Shown piece after piece: positions 11,266 to 13,099 of a stretch of 64,000 nt of DNA. This DNA is from Runella sp. CRIBMP (GTDB taxonomy: Bacteria > Bacteroidota > Bacteroidia > Cytophagales > Spirosomataceae): NCBI RefSeq assembly GCF_009905605.1, contig NZ_JAAAKZ010000005.1, forward strand, positions 186,001-250,000, in the 5' to 3' direction. Under the pieces are notes generated by a model, which made no database searches, was not told the DNA's origin, and saw only the letters and a list, made by a program, of their open reading frames with translations. The position numbers were made by a program, and so were the translations under genes. Positions within the stretch are counted from its first letter, which is position 1, and every line of letters begins with the position of its first letter.

Positions 11266-12186
11266 TTATAGTTTAGCACCACGTAGGAATTCTTCAATTC
11301 CCATTCGTTTTTTTCCTTCTAGTTGTAACTCCTCAATCGCCAGCCAACCATGACCGGTCTTGAAATGAAGAAATGATTTATTATCGGTCACAAAATCTCC
11401 GATTTCCCGCTCACTGGATTCTTGATTGGCCACTGATGCCTTATACACTTTACAGGTTTTTCCATTCAGGGTAGTCCAAGCAGTTGGATACGGCGATAAT
11501 CCACGCACAAAGTTGCGGATAGCAGAGGCTGATTGCGTCCATTGGATTTCGCAAGTTTCCTTAAAAATTTTGGGGGCACTTTTCAACACCTCAACCTCAG
11601 GTTGTGGAATTTGGGGATAATTGCCACGCTCCACCGCCTGCACCGTTTTGACGACCAAATCCGCTCCTTTTTGCATCAAACGCTCGTAAAGGGTACCTAC
11701 CGTATCATTTTCATGAATTGGCTCGGTTTCCTGAAAAATAATTTGACCTGTATCTATCTCGTGTTGTAGAAAAAAAGTAGTTACGCCCGTTTGCGTTTCG
11801 CCGTTGATGATGGCCCAATTGATGGGGGCCGCCCCTCTATACTGCGGCAAAAGCGACGCATGAAGGTTAAATGTGCCTTTGGGAGGCATATTCCAAACAA
11901 CTTCGGGCAACATTCGAAAAGCCACCACGACCTGTAAATCGGCCTGGTAGCTCCGCAATTCCTCCAAAAAATCGGGGTTTTTAAGTTTTTCGGGCTGAAG
12001 AACAGGAATCCCCTGCGTTAAGGCGTACTGCTTCACGGGCGAAGGCGTCAATATCAAACCGCGTCCAGCGGGTTTATCGGGGGCGGTCACCACCGCCACC
12101 ACATTTGAGCCACTTTCCACGAGCTTTTGAAGACTGCTCACCGCAAATTCGGGTGTGCCCATAAAAATAATCCGAAGACCTGTCAT
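11266..12186 (-). CDS. fmt: Methionyl-tRNA formyltransferase
   Basis: 306 residues, standard length. It transfers a formyl group from 10-formyl-THF to initiator Met-tRNA. The N-terminus RIIFMGTPEFAV is the family start. The catalytic Asn and His lie in FNLHASLLPQYRGAAPINW and the catalytic Asp in HEIDTGQI; the C-terminal OB-like domain (about 205-306) includes NFVRGLSPYPTAWT. The MFS gene follows 25 nt downstream. It is transcribed divergently from the greA leader. Confidence 0.97.
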   Translation of the reverse strand: MTGLRIIFMGTPEFAVSSLQKLVESGSNVVAVVTAPDKPAGRGLILTPSPVKQYALTQGIPVLQPEKLKNPDFLEELRSYQADLQVVVAFRMLPEVVWNMPPKGTFNLHASLLPQYRGAAPINWAIINGETQTGVTTFFLQHEIDTGQIIFQETEPIHENDTVGTLYERLMQKGADLVVKTVQAVERGNYPQIPQPEVEVLKSAPKIFKETCEIQWTQSASAIRNFVRGLSPYPTAWTTLNGKTCKVYKASVANQESSEREIGDFVTDNKSFLHFKTGHGWLAIEELQLEGKKRMGIEEFLRGAKL

Positions 12187-12254
12187 AAGAAATTAATTTC
12201 TACGTTTAAAGTAGTACAATAAGGCTATTTTTTAGGATAAAGCCTTTGGAGATA

Positions 12255-12285
12255 TTGATTTCAGTTGCAAATATTGCTAATTTTG
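12255..12285 (+). promoter_or_regulatory. Promoter of the greA leader (TTG / 20 nt / TAATTTTG)
   Basis: TTG at 12255-12257 and TAATTTTG at 12278-12285, spaced 20 nt, match the Bacteroidota housekeeping promoter closely. Predicted transcription starts near 12290, 180 nt ahead of greA and just ahead of a 14-codon open frame. Confidence 0.7.
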
Positions 12286-12302
12286 TGATTCAATTCTCGA
12301 CT

Positions 12303-12347
12303 ATGAACCGACACGACGAATACTTTTCGGTCTTGCTGAAGAAGTGA
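12303..12347 (+). CDS. 14-codon leader ORF ahead of greA
   Basis: ATG to TGA encodes MNRHDEYFSVLLKK. It begins about 13 nt after the predicted transcription start and ends 22 nt before an intrinsic terminator. Position inside a promoter-terminator cassette is the only support; codon statistics mean little at this length. It could be a leader peptide coupled to attenuation, or a chance frame in a small RNA. Confidence 0.35.
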   Translation: MNRHDEYFSVLLKK

Positions 12348-12369
12348 CAGATTCTACCATCCTTTTGTA

Positions 12370-12398
12370 GAGCGGTCATTTCACCGTTCTTTTTTTTT
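12370..12398 (+). terminator. Intrinsic terminator inside the greA leader
   Basis: GAGCGGT (12370-12376) pairs with ACCGTTC (12383-12389, one G-U pair) over a 6-nt loop and is followed by nine T (12390-12398). A smaller hairpin (TCTAC / GTAGA, about 12353-12371) overlaps its left arm by two bases and could compete. It lies 69 nt before the greA start. Confidence 0.75.
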
Positions 12399-12467
12399 GT
12401 CCATAGTCCCAGAAATTTCTTTACCACTAACAAATATTCTATAACAATTAACGTACAGTAAAGCAAA

Positions 12468-12941
12468 ATGGCTAAAATACAGTACTACACCGAAGAAGGT
12501 CTCAACAAGCTTAAGGCTGAGTTGCAGGACTTAAAAACGCGGGGCCGACAAGAAATAGCAAGAGCAATAGCTGAAGCTCGCGATAAGGGTGATTTAAGCG
12601 AAAATGCCGAGTATGATGCCGCCAAAGAAGCACAGGGATTGCACGAAGCAAAAATCTCTAAGTTAGAAGAAGTCTTGGGCAATGCCCGCATCCTCGACGA
12701 ATCGTCAATCGATACGTCGCAGGTGGCGGTGTTGTCTAAAGTCAAGATAAAAAACCGTAAAAACAACGCCGTTGTAACCTACACCCTCGTGTCTGAAGAA
12801 GAAGCCGATTTGAAACTCGGAAAAATCTCCGTTGGCTCTCCCATCGGCAAAGGTCTGCTCGGAAAAAAGGTCGGCGATGTAGCCCAATTTCAGGTTCCTG
12901 CGGGAGCTATGGAGTTTGAAGTATTAGAAATATCACGGTAG
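12468..12941 (+). CDS. greA: Transcription elongation factor GreA
   Basis: 157 residues, normal length. GreA enters the secondary channel of RNA polymerase and stimulates cleavage of the 3' end of backtracked RNA. The N-terminal antiparallel coiled coil (1-75) carries the acidic tip DLSENAEYDAAKE; the C-terminal FKBP-like domain contains SPIGKGLLGKKVGD and the end AGAMEFEVLEI. No promoter consensus is visible between the leader terminator and the start, so expression may depend on readthrough of that terminator. Confidence 0.97.
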   Translation: MAKIQYYTEEGLNKLKAELQDLKTRGRQEIARAIAEARDKGDLSENAEYDAAKEAQGLHEAKISKLEEVLGNARILDESSIDTSQVAVLSKVKIKNRKNNAVVTYTLVSEEEADLKLGKISVGSPIGKGLLGKKVGDVAQFQVPAGAMEFEVLEISR

Positions 12942-12984: not shown

Positions 12985-13022
12985 AAAAGTGGGCAGGCTT
13001 CCAAAAGCTGCCCACTTTTTTT
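12985..13022 (+). terminator. Intrinsic terminator of greA
   Basis: The stem AAAAGTGGGCAG(G)CTT / AAGCTGCCCACTTTT has one bulged G, a short loop and a T-rich end. It lies 43 nt after the greA stop. Confidence 0.85.
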
Positions 13023-13099
13023 ATTCCCAAACAAAATTTCTTATTTTAGATAATTAGTTTCAAAAACAAACCATTTATTCGTTTTTTTTGCTAAATACT

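Follow-up and report, generated by a model that had tools for sequence, protein, structure and literature searches.

Attenuators of the trp type carry a short leader ORF, and a ribosome positioned at its stop codon blocks an antiterminator and frees a terminator. The leader analyzed here precedes greA, which encodes a rescue factor for stalled RNA polymerase. In the sections of PMC6829880 that deal with GraL, about two thirds of E. coli greA transcripts are reported to end at the GraL terminator, 19 nt lie before that terminator, and active GreA increases termination there in vivo and not in vitro. In the survey of Naville and Gautheret (2010), greA/rnk takes seventh place in the list of gene families that have premature terminators, and antiterminators are proposed (PMC2965389). 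For Bacteroidota, a paper on F. psychrophilum names other conserved 5' elements (PMC9723704), and a word search of its main text and of the main texts of two papers on B. thetaiotaomicron returns no mention of greA. Leader termination of greA is already known in other phyla; no report of the ribosome-read form proposed below was found in the literature searched, which included few subscription journals.

The locus considered here lies in a 64-kb stretch of Runella DNA, analyzed at its full length and referred to as the window. Its greA leader is like GraL in that an intrinsic terminator lies in the leader, a short terminated RNA would be released, and the gene would depend on read-through (PMC6829880); the likeness is one of layout, not of sequence kinship. 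Unlike the Runella leader, GraL as described there is transcribed from two overlapping promoters and lacks a leader ORF, its GreA-dependent termination has been shown in vivo, and its terminator lies about 20 nt from the start of transcription, whereas in the window about 80 nt separate the hairpin from the predicted start; further, the candidate antiterminator strand of Runella holds a stop codon. With the greA/rnk leaders of Naville and Gautheret the locus shares a premature terminator and a proposed antiterminator, but the groups named in the main text of that paper are Proteobacteria, bacilli, and Clostridia, the string 'bacteroid' occurs there 0 times, and no ribosome-read ORF appears in the passages on greA that were consulted (PMC2965389). 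With attenuators of the trp type it would share a putatively translated leader ORF and the logic of a ribosome at the stop codon, although greA is not a biosynthetic gene, the ORF lacks a series of codons for any single amino acid, and the stop codon is itself part of the candidate antiterminator strand.

Sampling of greA Loci

The genus sample supplied greA loci from 13/13 genomes. Matches came from 198 of 200 genomes in the family sample (36 genera) and from 148 of 148 in the phylum sample (83 genera), at least 30 loci being taken from the matches listed in each case; the named-contig sample consisted of the best 80 of 589 relatives, and 120 longer stretches were added, 80 from the phylum sample and 40 from the family sample. 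greA is present in all 261 of the 261 loci used. Nine of these, in which the ORF rule left an upstream stretch shorter than 60 nt, were omitted from the terminator counts, and the 252 loci counted include the window twice (it is also L016) as well as near-duplicates, there being 248 unique upstream sequences. The controls were 811 genes from 220 of the loci, defined by a mechanical ORF call and not by annotated gene sets. The tests of the proposed switch began with 73 family loci (L016 and L249 left out). The terminator core was matched by 67, and an ORF was present in 61 of them; removal of duplicates left 53 leaders and 46 strand pairs. The six without an ORF, partly shortened at spurious neighbors, were reread at full length. 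Leader ORFs were counted in all 74 family loci, without a cut at the neighbor. Among the best 80 of 589 relatives, the closest named ones are Larkinella and Dyadobacter, with 79-80% GreA identity. Both are placed in Spirosomataceae at NCBI, a family spelled Spirosomaceae here, and we infer that the sampled family (f1) is the same one.

The greA Leader in the Window

The features of the locus are collected in Table 1. The nearest upstream ORF is divergent from greA in 73/73 family loci counted (ORFs called mechanically), and because the upstream gene in the window, which is presumably fmt-like, is divergent as well, the terminator in the greA leader cannot belong to it.

Table 1. Coordinates of the features read in and around the greA leader of the window.
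Feature	Position	Strand	Description and basis
Presumed fmt-like gene	11266-12186	-	Divergent from greA; ORF; context only
Bacteroidota-type promoter, predicted	12255-12285	+	TTG at 12255-12257 (presumed promoter element), 20-nt spacer, -7 box TAATTTTG at 12278-12285
Leader ORF, putative	12303-12347	+	14 codons, MNRHDEYFSVLLKK; ATG at 12303, TGA at 12345-12347; position kept, peptide not
Antiterminator 5' strand, candidate	12341-12348	+	GAAGUGAC; holds the stop codon; pairs with 12375-12382; fold, strand-swap, and shuffle tests
P1 hairpin, predicted	12352-12372	+	UUCUAC (12352-12357)/GUAGAG (12367-12372), nested in the antiterminator; folds
Intrinsic terminator, predicted	12369-12398	+	AGAGCGGT (12369-12376), loop CATTTC, ACCGTTCT (12383-12390), T-run to 12398; scan, null tests, consensus fold of 31 leaders
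Antiterminator 3' strand, candidate	12375-12382	+	GUCAUUUC; end of terminator 5' arm plus loop; folds, strand-swap test
Read-through leader	12399-12467	+	69 nt, without a TAnnTTTG box; sequence
greA	12468-12941	+	157 aa, transcript cleavage factor; putatively controlled gene; TIGR01462 match over cut-off

A first-pass annotation of this DNA had read a near-consensus promoter at 12255-12285, a transcript of about 108 nt containing a 14-codon frame at 12303-12347, and an intrinsic terminator at 12370-12398, and these readings hold up well. The -7 box is an exact fit to TAnnTTTG and is kept across the 13 aligned genus loci, the coordinates of promoter and frame are right, and the hairpin occupies 12369-12390 with its T-run extending to 12398. 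Given that 5'-end mapping in F. psychrophilum places the TAnnTTTG box at -12 to -5 (PMC9723704), transcription is predicted to start at 12290; this start and the end of the T-run agree with the length proposed, so that the terminated RNA would extend from 12290 to about 12398. The predicted terminator points in the orientation of greA, 69 nt upstream of its ATG at 12468. A scan for promoters of the sigma-70 type returned none on the + strand at this site, a miss that is expected because the Bacteroidota consensus differs, and TAnnTTTG was used instead. Upstream of the promoter lies a T-rich block, ATTTTTTAGGATA at 12227-12239, which is largely kept in the genus alignment and is possibly an upstream promoter element. 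A second hairpin with a T-run, AAGTGGGCAG...CTGCCCACTTTTTTT at 12985-13023, is seen by eye 3' of greA and is absent from the list of the terminator scan; it probably ends the greA transcript.

A Premature Terminator Conserved before greA

Taken alone, the window holds no excess of terminators, with three found against 2.5 expected by chance in the 2.1 kb scanned. The comparative scan, which called a hairpin of dG <= -8 with a U-run in the stretch between the neighbor and greA, found a terminator before greA in 236/252 Bacteroidota loci (94%), as against 161/811 other genes of the same loci, 91/1008 dinucleotide shuffles, and 42/252 reverse strands. Among loci with divergent neighbors, whose upstream gene a terminator here cannot serve, it is present in 137/149 greA loci versus 32/374 controls; with tandem neighbors it precedes greA in 98/101. 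The combination of a terminator with an exact TAnnTTTG box no more than 130 nt ahead is found at 141/252 greA loci versus 7/811 controls and 5/1008 shuffles. Counting unique upstream sequences leaves the terminator at dG <= -8 in 232/248, and in 162/178 outside Spirosomaceae. Eight of the 252 loci are without a hairpin at dG <= -6 and eight more fall between -6 and -8, while five of the excluded loci (L138, L158, L218, L234, and L249) have a hairpin and T-run by eye. Other families of the order have a terminator in 33/40 loci, in stretches not cut at neighbors and with no matched control. Ten GreA-like paralogs constitute a weak control, their upstream stretches being uncut at neighbors and unscanned for promoters: four are without a hairpin and U-run, five have one at dG <= -8, and one has a weak one. 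In a consensus fold of 31 leaders the terminator pairs are near-invariant, with 1/8 changed on both sides; covariation is weak and says little because the terminator hardly varies. Comparison of sequences strongly supports leader termination of greA, with a premature terminator conserved across the Bacteroidota loci sampled.

That greA is controlled by leader termination had been proposed in the first-pass annotation, with conservation among relatives as a test. The comparison with other genes and with shuffled sequence supports the proposal, and the relatives keep the promoter, the position of the ORF, and the terminator without a second TAnnTTTG promoter. The same annotation saw no second promoter before greA, and a scan restricted to TAnnTTTG likewise finds none between hairpin and gene in the window. 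Given that such a box follows the hairpin in only 2/244 loci, greA appears to be dependent on read-through.

What sets the read-through is a separate question. GreA itself may tune the terminator, more active GreA giving more termination as at GraL, with translation of the leader ORF incidental. In E. coli, catalytically active GreA represses greA by way of the GraL leader (PMC6829880), and the terminator before Bacteroidota greA is kept with divergent and tandem neighbors alike. Such autoregulation would leave unexplained the conserved ORF of Spirosomaceae leaders, its frame, and the overlap of its stop codon with the candidate antiterminator strand. As a full account of the locus we hold it to be a serious possibility, though not the probable one; it could also act jointly with ribosome-read attenuation.

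Two Leader Architectures

The distance from box to hairpin divides the loci. Outside Spirosomaceae the median is 7 nt, and in 62 of 98 loci with an exact box it is at most 12 nt; the hairpin starts at about +4, and the terminated RNA would be about 30-40 nt long. A short, GraL-like spacing between start and terminator is present in many of these leaders, and most of them are too short for an ORF, a point in favor of autoregulation by GreA. The first base of the hairpin falls at about +3 to +4 of the predicted transcript in L176, L181, L188, and further loci outside Spirosomaceae, which is unusually near the start for an intrinsic terminator. In L211 a tRNA-like sequence apparently lies between box and hairpin (by eye). 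Within Spirosomaceae the median distance is 95 nt (56 loci), about 90 nt being inserted between box and hairpin.

A hairpin within a few nucleotides of the predicted 5' end, as in many Bacteroidota, might be expected of a 5' structure that stabilizes greA mRNA, with the U-run incidental. We consider this highly improbable: hairpin and U-run are kept together in 94% of loci (in a scan that required the U-run and left hairpins without one uncounted), and in Spirosomaceae some 95 nt separate it from the box and a conserved alternative structure competes with it. The sequences suggest a phylum-wide core consisting of a promoter-proximal terminator only, to which Spirosomaceae would have added an ORF and an antiterminator. 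A few other Cytophagales loci carry similar leader ORFs. Three such loci, L306, L308, and L063 (the last named as a Microscillaceae MAG), have a short ORF between the promoter and the greA terminator, and since they lie elsewhere in Cytophagales the attenuator would be older than Spirosomaceae or have arisen more than once. In the outgroup L063 a 20-codon ORF accompanies the same switch, with the predicted terminator probability going from 0.0 to 1.0.

A Short Open Reading Frame in the Leader

A terminator of the kind looked for is present in 72 of the 74 family loci. An exact box accompanies it in 70, and 67 of these 70 also have a leader ORF, taken as a frame of at least nine codons with an ATG start and a stop 20-45 nt before the terminator. 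Counted over unique family leaders, an ORF like that of the window is found in 64/67, compared with a mean of 7.4 and a maximum of 17 of 67 in shuffled leaders. Its ATG lies 17-20 nt after the box in 48/67 and its length is 14 or 15 codons in 39/67. The frame is kept as well. Reading from the first ATG after the box, one meets the first stop within the zone 25-40 nt ahead of the terminator in 49 of 52 leaders for frame 0, in 0 for frame +1, and in 3 for frame +2, a count in which near-duplicates are included and frame +1 often stops at once, the ORF beginning ATGA. UGA, UAG, and UAA all serve as stops, and the peptides differ between genera, so that position and frame are conserved and the product is not. 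Lysine and arginine together make up 0.255 of residues in frame 0 versus 0.19 and 0.154 in the other frames, a mild excess.

Four of the 13 genus members (L022 and L024-L026) have a 1-nt shift that produces an 11-codon ORF; L256, L260, and L262 have the box and no qualifying ATG-ORF; L242 and L261 are without an exact box, and L240 and L247 without a terminator of the type sought. By eye, L256 and the outgroup loci L054 and L068 have, in place of the ATG-ORF, a frame that starts with GTG and is about nine codons long (ACGTG...TAG). Attenuation specific to an amino acid was considered and dropped, inspection of 21 representative leaders having revealed no common run of regulatory codons.

That the leader is a small RNA was the other option of the first-pass annotation. 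The complete unit from promoter to terminator is also what an independent or dual-function small RNA would require, or an RNA that encodes a functional peptide of 14 residues, and E. coli GraL acts in trans too (PMC6829880). Against this, the peptide sequences diverge freely between genera, the leader was met through or beside greA and occurs once in its own genome, the 64-kb window has 0 Rfam matches at the curated threshold, and the strands described below covary with each other, as a switch acting in cis needs. An independent role for the 108-nt RNA is consequently regarded as unlikely.

A Predicted Pairing That Competes with the Terminator

The antiterminator is an addition to the earlier annotation and would give the short ORF a role. 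Its candidate 5' strand pairs with the end of the terminator 5' arm and the loop across P1, the 3' arm of which shares 12369-12372 (AGAG) with the terminator; in the alignment P1 occurs as CTAC/GTAG and as CTGC/GCAG. P1 alone was dropped as the antiterminator, its overlap with the terminator being four bases only and the enclosing pairing explaining the folds better. The same enclosing pairing is found with other bases as AUUGAC/GUCAAU in L027, CUGAC/GUCAG in L045, ACACUGAC/GUCGGUGU in L272, and UCUAACC with GGU and UAGA in L030.

Sequence by sequence, the pairing is not significant against shuffles, with p <= 0.05 in 5/53 leaders. Two further tests, by strand swap and by terminator probability, are later tests of the same idea that followed this uninformative pair count. 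In 20 divergent leaders a strand paired with its own partner gives -9.79 kcal/mol versus -7.90 (sd 0.46) with swapped partners (P=0.00015 in 20,000 permutations), and over all 46 strand pairs the values are -10.2 versus -8.48 kcal/mol. The predicted probability of the terminator in free RNA is 0.215 (n=53) versus 0.687 when ORF and strand are shuffled, the lowest of 60 shuffled sets being 0.600; for 21 representative leaders the values are 0.353 and 0.72. Masking the RNA as a ribosome would reverses the outcome. A mask that ends three codons short of the stop gives a terminator probability of 0.40, one through the stop codon 0.88 (above 0.5 in 46/53 leaders), and one through 12 nt from the first base of the stop 0.98 (52/53). 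For the window leader the predicted probability goes from 0.02 free to 1.0 masked.

Not every leader behaves in this way. The terminator is already favored in free RNA in 10/53, and with the full upstream stretch L037, L236, L255, and L266 favor it at 0.77-0.94. The mask through the stop fails to favor it in 7/53 (L022, L024, L235, L239, L248, L259, and L268), among which L022 and L024, with the 11-codon ORF, go from about 0.1 when masked to the stop to 1.0 at 12 nt. At 12 nt L268 is the only failure left, which may reflect a wrong choice of CGG by the script. As modeled, terminator and antiterminator would be mutually exclusive, with the choice between them set by the position of a ribosome.

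Biological Implications

The arrangement that we favor, and consider fairly probable, is one in which a single promoter, a terminator in the leader, and a short ORF with its antiterminator together set read-through into greA. Transcription from the promoter would produce a leader ending in the intrinsic terminator, greA would be reached by read-through, and the leader ORF would set how often polymerase passes. In free nascent RNA 12341-12348 would pair with 12375-12382 over P1 and polymerase would enter greA; if left uncovered the antiterminator should win because it is complete at 12382, before the terminator 3' arm (12383-12390) has been made. With prompt translation, a ribosome presumed to stand at the stop codon would cover the 5' strand, the terminator would form, and an RNA of about 108 nt would be released. 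The expected direction of the effect is that brisk translation of the leader gives less greA and slow or absent translation more. Translation probably decides whether greA is transcribed, by way of a leader ORF and an RNA switch. Of this scheme, comparison of sequences shows the promoter, the terminator, the position and frame of the ORF, the placement of its stop codon, and the alternative pairing, whereas the transcript ends, the presence of a ribosome, and the direction of the effect are predictions.

Why translation should govern greA invites speculation. The purpose might be to supply more GreA wherever no trailing ribosome is present to prevent backtracking. A more specific reading, offered tentatively and with considerable doubt, is that the leader senses the coupling of transcription and translation, GreA being made when the ribosome is late or absent and shut off when it keeps up; the ORF would then serve as a test track, with one reading for each transcript and no amino acid as its cue. 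In the parts of PMC7165469 drawn upon here, in vitro work indicates that uncoupling can arrest polymerase by backtracking, that a translating ribosome can push polymerase forward, and that Gre factors reactivate backtracked complexes. Production of GreA when the ribosome lags would fit those observations.

The implications extend beyond a single leader. Premature termination before greA, known in other phyla, is near-constant in the Bacteroidota loci sampled, and at this one gene the loci form a natural gradation that begins with a terminator standing alone and ends with a complete attenuator. In one family, an apparent ribosome-read switch would link translation to the supply of a polymerase-rescue factor, and it makes testable whether, and how, Bacteroidota sense the loss of contact between ribosome and polymerase.
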